Shown here in pieces: positions 47,624 through 55,013 of a stretch of DNA of 64,000 bases. Where the stretch lies: the NCBI GenBank assembly GCA_018676675.1, contig JABHEG010000196.1, positions 1-64,000 on the forward strand, in the 5' to 3' direction. Positions within the stretch are counted from its first letter, which is position 1, and every line of letters begins with the position of its first letter. Under the pieces are notes generated by a model. It was not told the origin of the DNA, did not search any database, and worked only from the letters and a program-made list of their open reading frames with translations. The position numbers and the translations under genes were made by a program. This DNA comes from Lentisphaerota bacterium (GTDB lineage: Bacteria; Verrucomicrobiota; Lentisphaeria; Oligosphaerales; JABHEG01).

Positions 47624-47716
47624 ATGGTACTCCTGACGACGGTGAAACATGCGTGCCGAACGTATTGTCTCATTGTGGTACGAGCAAGCCACGCCCGCCC
47701 TAAGGAAGACACAGCC

Positions 47717-48580
47717 ATGTTCACACGAGTCGGCATTCCCTGCTTCGGCCAGATCGCTGCCCTGGCCGCTCTCACCTTGGCCCCCTGCCCTTGTCTGCTC
47801 GAAGCCGGACAAGGCGCAGAGCATGCAGACAGGTCGGCGATCCCCCAGCCGGCGCGTACGACACCCACGACGTTCATCTCGTCGGACGGCTCCCTGGACC
47901 TGGACGCTGTGGTGAAACACTTCGAGGATCTCTACCGAGCCGGAAGCAGCATCGCTTCCGCCGAGCTGACGATCAGTCGCCCGCGCCGTTCGCGCAGCCT
48001 GCGCATGAACGTTCGGACGCAGGGAGAAGACAGGGCGCTGATTCTCATCCAGGCTCCCCCACGTGAGAAGGGCACGGCCACGCTCAAGGTTGATGACAAC
48101 CTCTGGAACTACCTCCCCCGGATCCGGCGCACAATCCGCATTCCTCCATCCATGATGCTCTCCTCCTGGATGGGCAGTGATTTCACGAACGATGACTTGG
48201 TCCGGGAGTCTTCCTATAGAGAAGACTATGACTGCCGACTCGTGGGGAAGAGCGAAGACCCGACAGGTTGGCTGGTCAAGTTCACGGCCAGAGAGGGTGT
48301 GGTTGGGCTCTGGAAGAGCTTTGAGCTTACGGTCTCCCCGGATGGCACGATTCCACTGCAATCCCTCTGGTACAACCGCAAAGGCGAACTGGCCCGCCGG
48401 CTAATCTGGGATAAGGTCAAGGTGCTGGACGGGCGACGCCTACCGACCCGCATGACGCTCATCCCGACAGATCGGGACGACAAGACGTGGAAGACCGTCA
48501 TGGAATACCACGACATAGACTTCGAGGTCGACCTACCCGACGACACGTTCAGCCTCTCGAATCTGGAACGGCATAGATAG
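47717..48580 (+). CDS. LolA-like outer-membrane lipoprotein-sorting family protein
   Basis: A 287-residue periplasmic protein started at ATG 47717 (AAGGAA upstream). A signal peptide occupies about residues 1-30. Residues 60-285 match the LolA-like fold of the outer membrane lipoprotein-sorting family (PF17131 type): DLYRAGSSIASAELTISRP, DNLWNYLPRIRRTIRIPPSMMLSSWMGSDFTNDD and YRKGELARR-like strands. Family members form an open beta-barrel that carries lipid or lipoprotein anchors across the periplasm. Immediately downstream are two FtsX-type permeases, an ATPase and an outer-membrane protein, all on the + strand with small gaps. Together this makes a dedicated Lol-like trans-envelope pathway rather than the housekeeping LolA. 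Confidence 0.8.
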   Translation: MFTRVGIPCFGQIAALAALTLAPCPCLLEAGQGAEHADRSAIPQPARTTPTTFISSDGSLDLDAVVKHFEDLYRAGSSIASAELTISRPRRSRSLRMNVRTQGEDRALILIQAPPREKGTATLKVDDNLWNYLPRIRRTIRIPPSMMLSSWMGSDFTNDDLVRESSYREDYDCRLVGKSEDPTGWLVKFTAREGVVGLWKSFELTVSPDGTIPLQSLWYNRKGELARRLIWDKVKVLDGRRLPTRMTLIPTDRDDKTWKTVMEYHDIDFEVDLPDDTFSLSNLERHR

Positions 48581-48632
48581 TGAAGCCAACTCCTGACTCC
48601 TCAATTCTGTCCTCGGAACGGCAGACGAGACG

Positions 48633-49862
48633 ATGACTGCATCCACCGTCCGAATCGCTTGGCGCAATCTGTGGCGCAACCGTCGACGCACGGCCCTCGC
48701 GCTGTTGGCAATTGGCGTGGGGCAATGGGCGCTGTTGGCCACACAGGGCCTGATGCGCGGCTACGGGGACAACATCCAGAACGCCATCACGGGCCCCATG
48801 ATTGGGCACATCCAGATCCACAGGCCGGCTTACCGGGAGGAACGGGCTCTGGACTTGGCCATTGATGATTCCACTGAGCTTGTGAGAATCGTCCGAGCGC
48901 TCCCGAACGTGGCCGACGCTGCAGCCCGCGTCCTCGCTCCCGTACTGATTGCGCCCGAGTCAGATGCCTTCATCGCCGTGGTCATGGGAGTGGATGTTGC
49001 CTCTGAGTCCAAGCCGTTCGGTCTACTGTCAGGAAACACGGATTCCCTCCCGCCCGGGCATGTGATGGTCGGCTACCGCCTTGCCCGGAAAACCGGAGCA
49101 ACTGTGGGGCAGGAGATCGCGATCGTCGGCCAAGCCGCAGACGGCAGCCTCGCCAACGACCTGTTCACCGTTCACTCAATCATCAAGGGCCCCGTCGACC
49201 AACTGAACCAGATGGGCGTTGTGATGGGCCTGGGTGATGCTCAAATGCTCCTGGCGCTACCGGAACAAGCTCACGAGATCGTGATCCGCGTCGAGCAACT
49301 CGGACACGTTGCCGGCATCCTCGAAGCGGTGAAGGAGCTCGAGGGGGCACAATCCCTCGAAATCTCGCATTGGCGGGAGCTCGTCCCCGAACTGGTGATG
49401 ATCATTGACATGGTTGACTACGCCGGTTACTTCATCCTTGGTCTCGTCTTGGTCGCCGCGGTCGCAGGCATTGTCAACACCCTCATGATGTCTACCTATG
49501 AACGCATGCATGAGTTCGGTATGCTCCTGGCGTTGGGATGCCGACCGGGTCGAATTGTCCGCATGATCCTGGCGGAAGCCGCGTTTCTGGGTGCTCTTGG
49601 GGTCGCTGTCGGCACCTCGCTGGGCTATGCATTCATTGCAGTCACTATGCGCACCGGCATCAACATGGCGTCCTGGGGCGGTGAGGAAGCGTCTGAGATT
49701 GCCTACGGGGGCATGCGACTCCCGCTGGAGATCATCCCACGTGTGGAGCCGTTTGACCCTATGCTCGGACTGGTTGCCGTCGTGCTGGTGTCCCTGCTTT
49801 CAGCCGCCTGGCCCGCCCTCGTGGCCGGGCGTCTGGACCCGATGGAGGCCATGCGGTCATGA
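48633..49862 (+). CDS. ABC transporter permease, FtsX/LolCE type (1)
   Basis: A 409-residue inner-membrane protein. It has one N-terminal transmembrane segment (about residues 20-42) after a basic WRNLWRNRRRT stretch, a large periplasmic domain (45-270) and three C-terminal membrane segments (275-400), the FtsX/LolC/MacB topology (PF02687, with MacB_PCD-type periplasmic domain). The cytoplasmic coupling segment STYERMHEFGMLLALGC is typical for contact with the ATPase. It starts 52 bases after the LolA-like gene, and its stop overlaps the second permease start by 4 bp. The two likely form a heterodimer with the ATPase at 51126 that extrudes lipids or lipoproteins to the LolA-like carrier. Confidence 0.85.
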   Translation: MTASTVRIAWRNLWRNRRRTALALLAIGVGQWALLATQGLMRGYGDNIQNAITGPMIGHIQIHRPAYREERALDLAIDDSTELVRIVRALPNVADAAARVLAPVLIAPESDAFIAVVMGVDVASESKPFGLLSGNTDSLPPGHVMVGYRLARKTGATVGQEIAIVGQAADGSLANDLFTVHSIIKGPVDQLNQMGVVMGLGDAQMLLALPEQAHEIVIRVEQLGHVAGILEAVKELEGAQSLEISHWRELVPELVMIIDMVDYAGYFILGLVLVAAVAGIVNTLMMSTYERMHEFGMLLALGCRPGRIVRMILAEAAFLGALGVAVGTSLGYAFIAVTMRTGINMASWGGEEASEIAYGGMRLPLEIIPRVEPFDPMLGLVAVVLVSLLSAAWPALVAGRLDPMEAMRS

Positions 49863-51100
49863 CCTCCTCCATCGCATCCCGGTACGCGTTGCGCAGTCTC
49901 CTGCGTCACAAACGCCGCACGTTCCTCTCGGTCGTGGGCATCGGTGTGGGATGCGGGGTGTGCCTGTTCCTGGTCAGTTACGTACGAGGCGAAAGCGAGA
50001 TGATGATGCGTGCCGCCGCCCAGAGCGGCACAGGGCACCTGCGTATCGCCCCGCGTCAGTGGCTGGAAACACGCAACGATGATCTACGTCTTGCAGACTG
50101 GGGCACCGGCATGGCCATGGCGGAGAAACTCGACGGGGTCGCCTGTGCCACCCCCCACGCACGTACAGACGCTCTATTGGCCATGGGGACCCGGACAGTT
50201 GGCGTCACCCTCACCGGCGTCGATCCAGAGCGTGAGCCACACCTCAACCGACTGATCAGGAAAGTCACGTTGGGAACCTACCTCACGTCAGGGGAAACGG
50301 GAATTGTCGTCATTGGGAAAGGCATAGCCGAACGCCTCGATGTGGGTCTTGACGACGACATCCTCGTTACCGCGTCCGGGCAGGACGGCCAGATTCAGGG
50401 CGCCATGCTGAGGGTCGTCGGCATCGTGGCAACCGGAAGCCGTGCCCTCGACACTCAGGTTTGTCACGTCCTGTTGGAGGATGTCAGTCGCATTACCGAC
50501 CGCCGGGGCCCGGCCGAGATCAGTATCCTTCTCGACACACCAAAGCGTTACCGCGAAACCGCCGACCTGCTCCAACAGCACGTGGGCGGAGAGTCGGTCG
50601 TTCTGACGTGGGAGGAGCTCATTCCGGAGTTGGCGGCAGCGGTTGAAGTCGACAAGACCTGGACCCGGTTGATGGTCGGTGTGGTCGTGCTCGTGGTGTT
50701 CCTGGGAATCGCGAGCGCCCAACTGGCCGCCGTCTTGGAACGCCGAAGGGAGTTTGCAGTGCTCTCCGCAATCGGCATGAAAGGGGGACAGCTCATCCGC
50801 ATCATGCTGACCGAGAGTCTCCTTCTCGGCCTGTTCGGCGGACTCCTTTCTCTCGCGATCGGACTCCCGGTTGTCGCATTCAGTGCAACCCACGGCATCG
50901 ATTTCAGCGGTTTGTATGGCGATGCTGACCTCAGCGTGTCCAGCATCCTGATAGATCCTATCATCTACGGCGACGCGGGTTGGTGGCTCGTCCCTCTGGC
51001 TCTCGGACTCTCACTGACCGCAACCATGCTCAGTTCCCTGTACCCGGCCTGGTACGCCTTGAGAACAGATCCGGCAAATGCGTTAAGGGTCGAGCACTGA
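49859..51100 (+). CDS. ABC transporter permease, FtsX/LolCE type (2)
   Basis: A 413-residue partner of the upstream permease with the same topology: TM1 at about 20-40 after RSLLRHKRRTF, a periplasmic domain to about 265 and three C-terminal TM segments. The coupling stretch ERRREFAVLSAIGMKGGQL is FtsX-like. The start overlaps the previous stop by 4 bp. The two permeases are clearly diverged from each other, so they form a heterodimer of the LolC/LolE kind rather than a homodimer of the MacB kind. The ATPase gene begins 25 bases downstream. Confidence 0.85.
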   Translation: MTSSIASRYALRSLLRHKRRTFLSVVGIGVGCGVCLFLVSYVRGESEMMMRAAAQSGTGHLRIAPRQWLETRNDDLRLADWGTGMAMAEKLDGVACATPHARTDALLAMGTRTVGVTLTGVDPEREPHLNRLIRKVTLGTYLTSGETGIVVIGKGIAERLDVGLDDDILVTASGQDGQIQGAMLRVVGIVATGSRALDTQVCHVLLEDVSRITDRRGPAEISILLDTPKRYRETADLLQQHVGGESVVLTWEELIPELAAAVEVDKTWTRLMVGVVVLVVFLGIASAQLAAVLERRREFAVLSAIGMKGGQLIRIMLTESLLLGLFGGLLSLAIGLPVVAFSATHGIDFSGLYGDADLSVSSILIDPIIYGDAGWWLVPLALGLSLTATMLSSLYPAWYALRTDPANALRVEH

Positions 51101-51125
51101 GGAAGCCCCCGGGAGATCGAACATC

Positions 51126-51821
51126 ATGTCATCCAACGTGCTCATCCAGGCGAAGTCGCTATGCAAAACGTATGAGCTTGGGCCCGTCACTGTTCCGGCG
51201 CTGAGCGGCGTCAGCCTGGACGTGTGTCAGGGAGATTTCCTGACAATCGTCGGCCCAAGCGGCAGCGGGAAGACAACGTTTCTGAACCTCGTTGGCGTGC
51301 TGGATACCCCGACTTCCGGAGGACTGATCGTGTTTGGAGAAGACACGGCCACCCTCTCCCGGAAGCAGCGCGCCGACTTGAGGCTTCGGACGTTGGGGTT
51401 CGTCTTCCAAGCCTACAATCTCGTTCCCGTGCTGACCGCCAGGGAGAACGTTGAGTTTGTGTTGGAACTTCAGGGGCTGGGCCATGAACGCCGCCGGCGG
51501 GCTGAGGAAGTCCTCGGGCAGTTGGGCTTGGAAGATCTGGGCGATCGGCGACCAAATGAGCTCTCGGGGGGACAACAGCAGCGCGTCGCCGTCGCTCGAG
51601 CTGTGGCCTCGCGCCCCAGACTCGTTCTCGCAGATGAGCCGACCGCCAACCTTGACGGCGAGAATGCCGAACTCCTGATCGACATGATGCAGCGCCTGAA
51701 TCGCGAAGAGAACATCACGTTCGTTTTCTCGACCCATGACCCCCGCGTCGTGCGCCACGCCAAGCGCGTCGTCACCCTCGTGGACGGTCAGGTCAGCAAC
51801 GACGAAATACGTAACGTCTAA
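51126..51821 (+). CDS. ABC transporter ATP-binding protein, LolD/MacB type
   Basis: A 231-residue ATPase of the usual LolD length. Walker A GPSGSGKTT is at residues 43-51, a Q-loop in GFVFQAYNLVPVLTARENV follows near 95, signature LSGGQQQRVAVARA near 145, Walker B LVLADEPT near 165 and the switch histidine in FVFSTHDPRVV near 200. All catalytic residues are present. It energises the two FtsX-type permeases just upstream. In the LolCDE and MacB families this means mechanical transfer of a substrate from the inner membrane to the periplasm rather than classical import. Confidence 0.92.
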   Translation: MSSNVLIQAKSLCKTYELGPVTVPALSGVSLDVCQGDFLTIVGPSGSGKTTFLNLVGVLDTPTSGGLIVFGEDTATLSRKQRADLRLRTLGFVFQAYNLVPVLTARENVEFVLELQGLGHERRRRAEEVLGQLGLEDLGDRRPNELSGGQQQRVAVARAVASRPRLVLADEPTANLDGENAELLIDMMQRLNREENITFVFSTHDPRVVRHAKRVVTLVDGQVSNDEIRNV

Positions 51822-51860
51822 GACCAACCACTCACCCTGGGATCCTTCCTGGCCAAGCAC

Positions 51861-53132
51861 ATGCGTCGACACCATCTCATCATCACGGCCGTGATCACAG
51901 CGATCTGCTGGCTCCGGACGTCGGCCGGTGCTGAACGTTGGTCCCTTGCCTCCATCCCGCAGCGTGTCACTCTCAACCCAACCCTCAAACTGACTGAGCT
52001 TCATTCACACAATCCAGGGGACCGTCTGCTCTACCCCCATAGGTCAGAATCGACAGCCATGCTTCGACTCCGACTTGACCTGCACACCAACGTCCGCGAG
52101 GTGCTGGATGTGAACGTGGCCTACGAGCTCGGCTCCCAGTGGCTCAGCCGCGACCGGGACGACGGCGCAGGATCTCGCGTCCTGCCCGCGGGAAGCCCCG
52201 TCCCGTTCCGGATGCACCAGTTGGTAGACGGCTTCGCCGATGGAGACCGGTTCGGCGCTGCCCATGAACTGGACCGGGCGCTCGTGGCGATCCATCCGGA
52301 CTGGGGTGAAGTCACGATCGGACGTCAGGCCATCGGCCTGGGACGCGGCGTGATGTTCAGCGCCGTTGACATGTTCTCCCCCTTCAACACACTCGAGGCA
52401 GATCGCGAGTGGCGACGAGGAGTTGACGCAGCACGCATGGAAATCCGCCTGTCGAGCACCGCCAGCGCCGAACTGATCGCCGTCGCCGGCGAGTCATGGG
52501 ACGCGTCTGCGCTACTCCTCCGACTCAGAGGCTATTTCGGGCCGCTCGACGCCGAACTGCTTGGCGGGAAACGCGGTCGGGATGGGGTGGCGGCAGTTGT
52601 GGTGTCATCGACCGTGGGCGCTGCCGAAGTGCACGCCGAAGCGGCCGTCTTCCGTACCCCTGAGGACCATCCCGAAGGCACAATCCTGAAGCGGGACAAC
52701 GACGTCCCCAAGGTTGTGCTCGGCTCCTCCTACACCTTCGGCATTGGCAACGGGATCACCCTCCTGCTGGAATACCACTACTCAGGATTCGGTGCCGGAG
52801 AAGCGGAAGACGCTCAAGCGCTCTTCGCCGCACCTGGATACGATCTGCGCCTAACCCGTGGCGACACGCAGACACTAGGGCAGCATGCCTGTGGTATCCA
52901 GCTCACCTACCCCGTCAACGAGGCGGTGGTTGCAGGGGTCTCGACCTTTGCCAGCCCAGTGGATGGGTCGGGCGTCGTCTCCCCGACCCTGCGGTGGGAT
53001 CTGTCCGCGACCACGTCCCTCGTTATCTCTGGCTACATCCCGTGGGGACAACGCCCGGATGGGGGCCGCATCAGAAGTGAATACGGCACATTCGCAACAA
53101 GCCTATTCGCCCAGTTGGGGATGTACTTCTAG
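51861..53132 (+). CDS. Outer-membrane beta-barrel protein of the Lol-like cluster
   Basis: A 423-residue protein with a signal peptide (about 1-24, ending SAGAE). The body has alternating beta strands with paired arginines and aromatic residues (LRLRLDLHTNVREVLDVNVAYEL, VTIGRQAIGLGRGVMFSAVDMFSPF) and ends LFAQLGMYF with a C-terminal phenylalanine, the usual signal for BAM-dependent barrel insertion. IGRQ...GRG...DMFSPFNTLEADREWRRGVDA is similar in character to DUF1302/porin-like proteins. It is the last gene of the cluster, 39 bases after the ATPase. It probably receives or passes on whatever the LolA-like carrier delivers. The family is not firmly identified. Confidence 0.65.
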   Translation: MRRHHLIITAVITAICWLRTSAGAERWSLASIPQRVTLNPTLKLTELHSHNPGDRLLYPHRSESTAMLRLRLDLHTNVREVLDVNVAYELGSQWLSRDRDDGAGSRVLPAGSPVPFRMHQLVDGFADGDRFGAAHELDRALVAIHPDWGEVTIGRQAIGLGRGVMFSAVDMFSPFNTLEADREWRRGVDAARMEIRLSSTASAELIAVAGESWDASALLLRLRGYFGPLDAELLGGKRGRDGVAAVVVSSTVGAAEVHAEAAVFRTPEDHPEGTILKRDNDVPKVVLGSSYTFGIGNGITLLLEYHYSGFGAGEAEDAQALFAAPGYDLRLTRGDTQTLGQHACGIQLTYPVNEAVVAGVSTFASPVDGSGVVSPTLRWDLSATTSLVISGYIPWGQRPDGGRIRSEYGTFATSLFAQLGMYF

Positions 53133-53180: not shown

Positions 53181-54485
53181 CTACAGCCCTTGCGACCTCA
53201 GGCTTCCGCCAACCAGACGCTCAATCCGTACCGCAGTCTGACGCAGGTCTGAAAGCGCCTCAAGTAACTGCATCTCCCCCTCGAACAGAGTCTGTTGAGC
53301 ATCGAGCACGTCAAGGTACTCAAATTTGCCGCTACGGTAGCCCTGCTGGGCAGCTTCGAACGCTCGACGAGCTCCCGGGAGCATTTCGTTCTCAATCGAC
53401 GCCGCCTCTTCCTTGGTAGCCTGCAGCTCTTGCCATTCGCCAGCAAGTTCAGCGCGCAGTGCCAAAGCGACAGCCAATTGGCCCTGCCTGGCGCCTTCCT
53501 GCTCAGCCAAGGCAGCCGCGATGTTGCCCTGGTTGCGGTCGAACAAGGGCAGCGGAACAGAGACAGCGAACTCCACCACCTCACTTCCACTCTCGCGTTC
53601 ATGCGCAACAGCGGCCGACAACGTTACGTCTGATATAGGAGCTGCTCTCTCCTGATCCACGACGGCCTGCGCCAGTTCCTCTTCGGTCGGCCAGCGGGCG
53701 ACGTCAGGATTGTTGGCCAAAGCAGCCTCCAGTGCCGCCAGCCCAGGGAGCTCCGGGACATCCCGAATACTCCCTTCAGCCCGCAGCTTGCCGGCCTCCG
53801 AGATGGGAGCATTCCATAGCAGGGCCAGTGCAGAACGAGCCGCTGACAGCTCACGCTCTGCTCGCCGTAACTCAACCCGACGCCCCGTCAGCTCAACATC
53901 TGCCTTGGTAAGCTCCAACGGCGAGACTTTGCCGGACTTCACTCGCTCCGCGGCGACATTTCGGACCTTGCTCCCAAGCTCGTGCGCAGCAAAGACCATC
54001 CGTACGCGTTCCTGAGCCGCAAGAAGGTCGACAAACCGGGTCTTGACCGCAGCCATCAAGTCCAGGCGCTCAGTCCCGGCGTCCCACCGGGCCAACTCCA
54101 CCTCGATCAGGGCGGCCCGACGCCGCTTGGCCCGTTTCCCCCCACGCTCAAACGTCTGAGCAGCTCGGACAACGAATATCGACGCATCAAGGCCTCGCTC
54201 ATCCCCCGTTACCCCAACATCCTCAACCTCAATCTCAAGTTCTGGATTTGGGCGCAAGCCAGCCTGTACTCCCCGCCCCGCAGCCGCCTCCACGGCCGCC
54301 TCGCCAGCCATGAGTATCGGGCTGCGGGAGAGTGCCAGTTCCATAGCCTGAGCAAGGGTCACACTGCCGGCGACACCATCTGGATGGGCAACCGGAGCAG
54401 GCTGGGCGAGGCTCAGCGTCCCACTTGAGATCACGACGGCAAAGCAGGACGGGAGAATTCTCTTGAAACGAGTGTGCAGGGCCAT
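53181..54485 (-). CDS. TolC-family outer-membrane efflux protein (CzcC-like)
   Basis: A 434-residue protein started at ATG 54485, because AGGAGG sits 8 nt upstream; an earlier ATG at 54503 precedes that site. Signal peptide 1-30. Two OEP repeats (PF02321) follow with long amphipathic helices (SVTLAQAMELALSRSPIL, LELTKADVELTGRRVELRRAERELSAARSALALLW) and a second half ending YRSGKFEYLDVLDAQQTLFEGE, characteristic of CzcC/TolC channel subunits. Three copies would form a trans-outer-membrane tunnel for an RND or ABC exporter. It follows the small CHG-motif protein, as in heavy-metal efflux loci, but no CzcA/CzcB gene is present here. It is convergent with the Lol-like cluster. Confidence 0.88.
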   Translation of the reverse strand: MALHTRFKRILPSCFAVVISSGTLSLAQPAPVAHPDGVAGSVTLAQAMELALSRSPILMAGEAAVEAAAGRGVQAGLRPNPELEIEVEDVGVTGDERGLDASIFVVRAAQTFERGGKRAKRRRAALIEVELARWDAGTERLDLMAAVKTRFVDLLAAQERVRMVFAAHELGSKVRNVAAERVKSGKVSPLELTKADVELTGRRVELRRAERELSAARSALALLWNAPISEAGKLRAEGSIRDVPELPGLAALEAALANNPDVARWPTEEELAQAVVDQERAAPISDVTLSAAVAHERESGSEVVEFAVSVPLPLFDRNQGNIAAALAEQEGARQGQLAVALALRAELAGEWQELQATKEEAASIENEMLPGARRAFEAAQQGYRSGKFEYLDVLDAQQTLFEGEMQLLEALSDLRQTAVRIERLVGGSLRSQGL

Positions 54486-54557
54486 CCGTAGCCCTCCTTT
54501 CATGAGACAAATGAATCGTTGGGACAGGATCGACGAACAGTGTTCAGAAAGGGAAGC

Positions 54558-55013
54558 TCAGACAAGAAGAACGACTGTCCGCAGGTGGGAGAGACAGTGA
54601 GGGGGAGGAAAGCGTCGGGGGCGGCGTATGTCCACCGGAGCGCACAGCGCGGGCAGCCCCTTCCGGGAGTCCAAGGCCACACGTAAGGCGGGCCAGCGCG
54701 AGGGACTCATGCCATCATGGTCCGCCGTCTCGGGGAGAATGGGAGTGTCCTGGCAACCTGCAGATGGCAGCAACATCGGAACGCCCTGGATCGTCGCCTC
54801 GGGATCATCGGCCAAATCATGACCGTCGCAGTGGGCATGAAAGGTCAACTCAACGGCTACATGGCCGTCCTGACCGTGACACAACACCACGTGTCCCGAC
54901 AACTGCAGGCACGCCCAGCCAAACACCAGGCAGGCAGCACTAACTATGCTTCGCATTCGTCCCATGGGTGTATAAGACCCCATTGCCACAACGAAGTTCG
55001 CGTTTTCAGACAT
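54558..55013 (-). CDS. Small secreted protein with CHG/HxxC motifs, efflux-associated
   Basis: A 151-residue protein with a hydrophobic export segment (about residues 20-42). After it comes VVLCHGQDGHVAVELTFHAHCDGHD, which pairs CHG with HVAxE and a HxHCxxH-like cluster. Further cysteines lie at about 86 and 122. Similar short proteins precede CzcC-type outer-membrane channels in metal-efflux operons and probably sense or bind metal ions in the periplasm. The gene lies 72 bases upstream of the TolC-family gene on the same strand. The start is uncertain: ATG 55013 has GGAAAG upstream, while ATG 54965 would give a tidier signal peptide. Confidence 0.6.
   Translation of the reverse strand: MSENANFVVAMGSYTPMGRMRSIVSAACLVFGWACLQLSGHVVLCHGQDGHVAVELTFHAHCDGHDLADDPEATIQGVPMLLPSAGCQDTPILPETADHDGMSPSRWPALRVALDSRKGLPALCAPVDIRRPRRFPPPHCLSHLRTVVLLV

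Follow-up and report, generated by a model that had tools for sequence, protein, structure and literature searches.

It has long been asked how lipids and other hydrophobic molecules get to the surface of bacteria, and few pathways have been described. The window analysed here, a stretch of 64,000 nucleotides from a Lentisphaerota bacterium (assembly GCA_018676675.1, contig JABHEG010000196.1), contains at positions 47717-53132 a Lol-like gene cassette that ends in a gene for an outer-membrane barrel. The question raised by this locus is whether it constitutes a second, dedicated trans-envelope system besides the housekeeping Lol machinery and, if so, what kind of cargo it moves. An earlier note on this DNA had described five contiguous and co-directional genes, encoding a carrier, a pair of diverged FtsX permeases, a LolD-type ATPase and a barrel. 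All five open reading frames are present on the plus strand, separated by intergenic gaps of 52, -4, 25 and 39 nucleotides:

47717-48580, plus strand: LolA-like carrier (PF17131, LolA3 type), 287 residues; from Pfam, an AlphaFold2 model and fold matches
48633-49862, plus strand: permease 1 (FtsX/MacB_PCD, type VII ABC, ATP-binding cassette), 409 residues; from Pfam and NCBIfam
49859-51100, plus strand: permease 2 (FtsX/MacB_PCD, type VII ABC), 413 residues, closer to LolF/LolE; from Pfam and NCBIfam
51126-51821, plus strand: LolD/MacB-type ATPase, 231 residues, with Walker A GPSGSGKT and signature LSGGQQQR; from Pfam and NCBIfam
51861-53132, plus strand: dedicated outer-membrane barrel, 423 residues, predicted porin fold, DUF1302-related; from AlphaFold2, Foldseek and profile comparison

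The two permeases share 24% identity and are indeed diverged. We propose, with a probability of roughly 0.6, that the cassette encodes a self-contained trans-envelope exporter, consisting of an ABC motor, a carrier shuttle and a barrel as outer-membrane acceptor, for a small lipid or hydrophobic metabolite. The proposal builds on gene content, gene order, conservation, co-occurrence, folds and homology to carrier-plus-barrel systems driven by RND (resistance-nodulation-division) pumps, all of which were established directly.

A separate Lol locus in the genome

The genome (14.1 Mb in 390 contigs, 93.9% complete, 8.1% contamination) harbors another, housekeeping-like Lol locus on contig C301 (G000:C301, L025:5046-7206), which consists of one LolCE/LolF-like permease and an adjoining LolD-like ATPase. 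The permease matches the lolCE profile with about 292 bits, compared to 127 and 107 bits for the permeases of the window; the ATPase matches the LolD profile with 245 bits, below the cut-off of 307.75 bits. The lolCE cut-off (362.45 bits) is missed by C301 and by all 48 genomes of the order, and the difference in score between C301 and the window is therefore a stronger argument than the cut-off. A lolCE gene of C301 quality is found once each in 42 of the 48 genomes, and the window barrel, used as a query, in six. The cassette is accessory and separate from the housekeeping Lol system. The possibility that the window might hold the only Lol system of this genome, which the earlier note had considered, does not apply, as the LolCE-LolD pair on C301 is separate and scores better.

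The search for housekeeping lolA and lolCDE elsewhere in the genome, as suggested in the same note, succeeded in part: LolCE-LolD is found on C301, and the Pfam family PF03548 (LolA) was not detected in this genome. PF17131, the family of the cassette carrier, is restricted to the window locus and is the sole LolA-like family detected in the genome, as would be expected if the cassette were the housekeeping Lol system in an odd arrangement. We give hardly any weight to this explanation, given the far higher scores of the C301 locus and the single occurrence of C301-type lolCE genes across the order, mostly in genomes without the cassette. In addition, PF03548 LolA is found in 23 of the 48 genomes, including the cassette-bearing relatives G012 and G046. 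An open reading frame of 262 residues beside the C301 lolCE gene was considered as a housekeeping LolA and rejected, as it has no family match and an implausible translation.

Conservation of the five-gene order

Further loci were collected by a contig scan seeded on the carrier alignment alone and were annotated with profiles for four families. The scan covers the best 80 of at least 573 relatives and is biased towards close carriers. The annotation yielded 60 full cassettes, counting the window; in each of them the genes run carrier, permease, permease, ATPase, barrel (median gap 12 nucleotides). Because the identical order recurs in 59 other loci, the arrangement is not due to chance. The barrel is present in 59 of the 60 loci that have a carrier, an ATPase and at least 1 kb of sequence past the ATPase, L064 being the exception. 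The barrel is thus conserved with the remaining genes, contrary to what the earlier note had named as a refutation, and its conservation together with the separate locus on C301 supports the view of a second, dedicated trans-envelope system of the Lol type that has an outer-membrane protein of its own. Across cassettes, the pairwise identities of the five proteins are correlated (Spearman 0.69-0.83), as expected if the five proteins travel together; common ancestry could explain part of this correlation.

Judged by record titles, whose names are those of the depositors, the full cassettes stem from about 15 phyla. The source groups are Planctomycetota, Gammaproteobacteria, Epsilonproteobacteria, Desulfobacterota, Myxococcota, Bdellovibrionota-type bacteria, Poribacteria, Zixibacteria, WOR-3, Aminicenantes, Bacteroidota and Balneolales, Calditrichaceae, Elusimicrobiota, Gemmatimonadetes and Latescibacterota. 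Cultured bacteria with the cassette include Litorilituus, Colwellia, Draconibacterium, Echinicola and Desulfocicer. An intact set of carrier, pump and barrel in about 15 phyla, with cultured hosts, constitutes a small and directly testable system.

The cassette is common across bacteria though accessory within this phylum. Within the order, the full five-gene order is found in three loci (L029, L031 and L032) and likewise in L028, whose barrel is truncated at the end of the contig. Within the phylum (145 genomes), strong matches to the carrier (E < 1e-80) occur only in the genome of the window (G000), G005 and G165, and strong barrel matches (E < 1e-60) occur in exactly the same three genomes. 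The cassette parts of G005 are dispersed over two contigs (L128:2139-5169, L116:3852-4748 and L129:8326-9822): the carrier is located at 12 kb of contig C46, a cassette-type permease pair with one member broken in frame at 51-54 kb of the same contig, and the barrel on contig C89. The ATPase was not found beside this permease pair. The cassette of G165 (L117:5988-11686) is apparently decaying: the carrier match contains an in-frame stop, permease 1 is shortened, and the barrel is truncated next to a transposase-like open reading frame.

The carrier and the ABC motor

The carrier matches PF17131 (LolA_like) over the entire profile (143.3 bits, 8.7e-42, profile positions 1-184 of 184; curated cut-off 30 bits). 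Its only other Pfam match is a weak one to DUF1329; PF03548 is not matched. The protein bears the motif SSWMGSDFTNDDLV and begins with a signal-peptide-like stretch without a canonical lipobox. As a lipobox-like stretch is found in only one of 60 cassette carriers, the sequences suggest that the carrier is most likely soluble and without a membrane anchor. The AlphaFold2 model (predicted local distance difference test score, pLDDT, 86.8) indicates a LolA fold, with 4z48, 3bk5, 9tp6 and 3buu as best matches in the PDB (TM-score to target 0.77-0.82). Entry 9tp6 is LolA3 of P. gingivalis, a protein of the PF17131 fold that lacks both the typical LolA arginine and the typical LolB leucine and interacts weakly with LolB of the same species (PMC13103446). 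In F. johnsoniae, deletion of lolA3 leaves gliding and amylase secretion unaffected (PMC11885536). By analogy, the LolA3 data argue against a delivery of cargo to LolB.

Both permeases match the Pfam families FtsX and MacB_PCD, and the ATPase matches ABC_tran (7.3e-32). The best NCBIfam match is lolCE (TIGR02212; 107.6 and 127.3 bits, cut-off 362.45) for the permeases and LolD (TIGR02211; 212.4 bits, cut-off 307.75) for the ATPase, below the cut-off in each case. Nearly the entire length of each permease can be aligned with LolF, LolE and LolC. At the position of the LolC Hook, which we take to comprise about residues 167-179, the segment is 25 residues long in every first permease (60 of 60) and 24-26 residues long in 59 of the 60 second permeases; according to pairwise alignments, it is 5-6 residues shorter than in LolC, LolE and LolF. 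In E. coli, the Hook of LolC recruits LolA (PMC9457489). Because the Hook segment is shortened in both permeases, docking of the carrier probably differs from the LolC-LolA interaction. A permease tree does not separate first and second permeases into two clean ancient clades, and in the window-type subgroup, first permeases show a weak grouping with second permeases (support 0.57).

The outer-membrane barrel

The window barrel has no significant Pfam match (best Porin_4, 0.043), and its profile matches no PDB chain by sequence; the assignment to a structural class therefore rests on the predicted fold. The AlphaFold2 model, computed from 61 sequences, is a confident porin-type beta-barrel with 18 listed strands (mean pLDDT 90.0, predicted TM-score 0.86). 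Foldseek matches are porins, Occ channels, chitoporins, AlgE and DcaP (TM-score to query 0.41-0.55 among the matches listed, identity 8-12%), and Omp85 is absent among the 50 best PDB fold matches. The model thus points to a generic porin type that is not Omp85-like. The N-terminus of the protein resembles a signal peptide, and in 49 of 60 family members the last residue is phenylalanine, the usual C-terminal signal of outer-membrane proteins. Eight residues are invariant over the 61 sequences, six of them within DR, GR and GVDA segments; the conserved segments read GRQ-x-I-xx-G and GVDAxR. The family PF06980 (DUF1302; cut-off 23.2 bits) does not match the window barrel and weakly matches 10 of the 61 relatives (best 2.1e-5). 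A search of plasmid records with the barrel as a query gave no match.

RND-driven relatives of the carrier-barrel pair

A second arrangement of related genes was reached through weaker carrier matches in the phylum. In two loci (L118:2619-7605 and L119:5467-10646), an RND/MMPL pump, a PF17131 carrier and a barrel are encoded in succession; the pump was identified by Pfam in L118, and by length, position and resemblance in L119. In a third locus (L120:5472-7724), a PF17131 carrier adjoins a DUF1302-type barrel, with no pump gene detected beside the pair. The L119 barrel matches DUF1302 with 36.5 bits, and a profile comparison using hhalign aligns the RND-linked with the cassette barrels over 263 columns (probability 97.8, E 1.3e-12). 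Judged by these comparisons, RND-linked barrels belong with or near DUF1302 and the cassette barrels are homologous to them. The presence of a homologous carrier and barrel beside RND pumps implies that the pair works with two kinds of motor, such that, as far as sequence relationships tell, carrier and barrel are the shared unit and the motor is exchangeable.

A published counterpart is AmeABCD of Castellaniella defragrans, which comprises a DUF1302 barrel, a DUF1329 LolA-fold protein and an RND pump of the HAE3 type and is required for tolerance of apolar monoterpenes (PMC6394551). Like the cassette, AmeABCD and the trios in L118 and L119 encode a LolA-fold carrier together with a homologous DUF1302-type barrel. 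They differ in the motor, a proton-driven RND pump in place of the FtsX-type ABC machine; furthermore, AmeB belongs to DUF1329 and AmeC has no counterpart in the cassette. Tentatively, and at somewhat less than even odds, the LolA-fold carrier and the DUF1302-type barrel might represent a general module by which lipids or hydrophobic molecules cross the outer membrane and which is combined with interchangeable motors (FtsX-type ABC or RND). The ABC version of this module would then be an ancient, unnamed class of lipid exporters distinct from Lpt, Lol and Mla/MCE. The relationship joins Lol-like ABC systems and RND-driven LolA/DUF1302 systems, which are treated separately in the literature cited here.

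The RND relatives also bear on the direction of transport. In P. gingivalis and Prevotella intermedia, operons of TetR, MMPL and 'outer membrane lipoprotein-sorting protein' genes show strong induction when iron or haem is limiting (PMC10434189, PMC10470040). The P. gingivalis operon PG1175-81 resembles cassettes in having a TetR regulator and a LolA-like carrier and differs from them in its RND (MMPL) motor (PMC10434189, PMC10470040). The induction hints at a cargo or signal of the RND siblings and is not a result for the ABC cassette. As uptake systems are induced under the same limitation, and porin-fold barrels are mostly uptake channels, the cassette might be an importer or recycling system whose barrel takes up a hydrophobic compound that the carrier moves to the inner membrane. 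We regard this as highly improbable, given that the type VII ABC systems with LolA-type partners studied so far extract and export, and that AmeABCD is reported as an efflux system (PMC6394551).

Proposed function and relation to known systems

In the proposed exporter, the diverged permeases 1 and 2 (presumably as a heterodimer) and two copies of the LolD-like ATPase would assemble into a type VII ABC machine that pulls a substrate embedded in the inner membrane out of its periplasmic leaflet. The LolA-fold carrier would receive the substrate in its hydrophobic groove and cross the periplasm, and the porin-fold barrel would replace LolB as the outer-membrane acceptor, with cargo being passed into or through the outer membrane. 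The barrel would then serve as a lipid conduit. We infer the subunit stoichiometry, the carrier-to-barrel hand-over, the outward direction and the class of cargo. Lipid, lipoprotein and glycolipid had all been named as possible cargo in the earlier note. The balance of evidence points to a small lipid or another hydrophobic metabolite, and lipoproteins, in particular the general lipoprotein pool, are less favored because of the LolA3-type carrier, the altered and short Hook, the frequently adjacent gene for a ligand-responsive TetR regulator (see below) and the RND-linked relatives of the barrel.

A dedicated lipoprotein-to-surface route, in which the ABC machine would extract one or a few lipoproteins, the carrier would chaperone them and the barrel would insert or flip them, appears doubtful. 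LolCE and LolD are the nearest named families of the permeases and the ATPase, with LolF, LolE and LolC the nearest among solved chains, and a Borrelia cluster with a LolA-like protein, a LolE-like ABC and a barrel has been proposed for such a role (PMC13078400). The most frequent neighbors of the cassette, however, are not lipoprotein genes, the predicted barrel has a porin fold and not that of Omp85, and both permeases have a shortened Hook hairpin. The carrier belongs to the LolA3 type, whose solved member interacts weakly with LolB (PMC13103446), and a surface lipoprotein reporter localises normally in F. johnsoniae lacking lolA1-3 and lolB1-2 (PMC13103446, PMC11885536).

Several points weigh against the proposed exporter. 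As PF03548 was not detected in the genome, the cassette carrier could conceivably also serve housekeeping lipoproteins. One locus from WOR-3 (L064; 8950-12939) consists of carrier, two permeases and ATPase without a barrel. The modeled barrel has a generic porin fold, in which no feature, such as a lateral gate, is obviously made for handling lipids. Strict homology to the published relatives does not extend to every component, AmeB being a DUF1329 protein from an RND system and not a member of PF17131, and cassettes of exactly this type are known from genes, homology and predicted folds alone.

With E. coli LolABCDE and its LolF variants, the cassette shares the type VII ABC permease pair, the LolD-like ATPase and the unanchored LolA-fold carrier. 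In contrast to LolABCDE, it has permeases and an ATPase that score less than the curated cut-offs for LolCE and LolD, its carrier belongs to PF17131 and not to PF03548, its Hook segment is 5-6 residues shorter, a barrel stands in the place of LolB, and it is accessory rather than universal. The cassette would work like a Lol relay with an added barrel, yet lacks those defining features of the Lol family that were tested. Of the solved structures, P. gingivalis LolA3 (PDB 9tp6; PMC13103446) is one of those closest to the carrier. Among published proposals, the Borrelia BBJ23-29 cluster comes nearest, which likewise combines a LolA-like carrier, a LolE/MacB-type ABC and an outer-membrane barrel (PMC13078400). 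It differs in having seven genes, one homodimeric permease, TPR chaperones and an Omp85-family barrel (BBJ25), and has been reported in Borrelia only (PMC13078400). No paper describing the five-gene operon was found in the literature searched. The cassette is real and widespread, and the putative export system that it encodes is apparently uncharacterised.

Regulation and neighboring genes

A TetR-family gene is located directly upstream of the cassette in 18 of 59 cassettes, co-directional and either overlapping or at most 66 nucleotides away; the window has no such gene. In three of the upstream proteins, the C-terminal domain is TetR_C_4, which is YsiA-like. TetR regulators typically accompany efflux operons, and this, together with the FtsX/MacB_PCD fold and the porin-like barrel, would fit a MacB-like efflux or peptide/antimicrobial-resistance system, in which the carrier would serve as adaptor and soluble compounds would exit through the barrel. 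Such a function is quite unlikely, since the cassette encodes neither an HlyD/MacA-type adaptor nor TolC, the TolC-like OEP gene nearby lies on the opposite strand and is closest to IhpA, and the LolA fold has a hydrophobic groove and acts in studied members as a shuttle and not as a tube-forming adaptor. In the surroundings of about 59 cassettes, no lipoprotein or biosynthetic gene was found to recur; besides TetR, the only recurring neighbors are parA/parB in three loci, apparently of Colwellia/Litorilituus. An Obg GTPase-like open reading frame lies shortly downstream of the barrel-less cassette of WOR-3.

The window cassette is bounded as a single unit by a heparinase II/III gene that diverges upstream, on the opposite strand at a distance of about 90 nucleotides, and by the TolC-like OEP gene (53184-54503) that converges downstream. 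One further feature is assigned by position:

47625-47716, no strand assigned: presumed promoter region, the divergent intergenic stretch of about 90 nucleotides between the cassette and the heparinase II/III gene

A promoter and terminator scan at the cassette gave no signal exceeding the shuffled background and no sigma-70-like site. The OEP protein encoded on the opposite strand at 53184-54503 is closest to the metal exporter subunit IhpA, and a small histidine-rich open reading frame (54558-55013) adjoins its gene on the same strand. The region 53181-55013 is a possible heavy-metal efflux locus.

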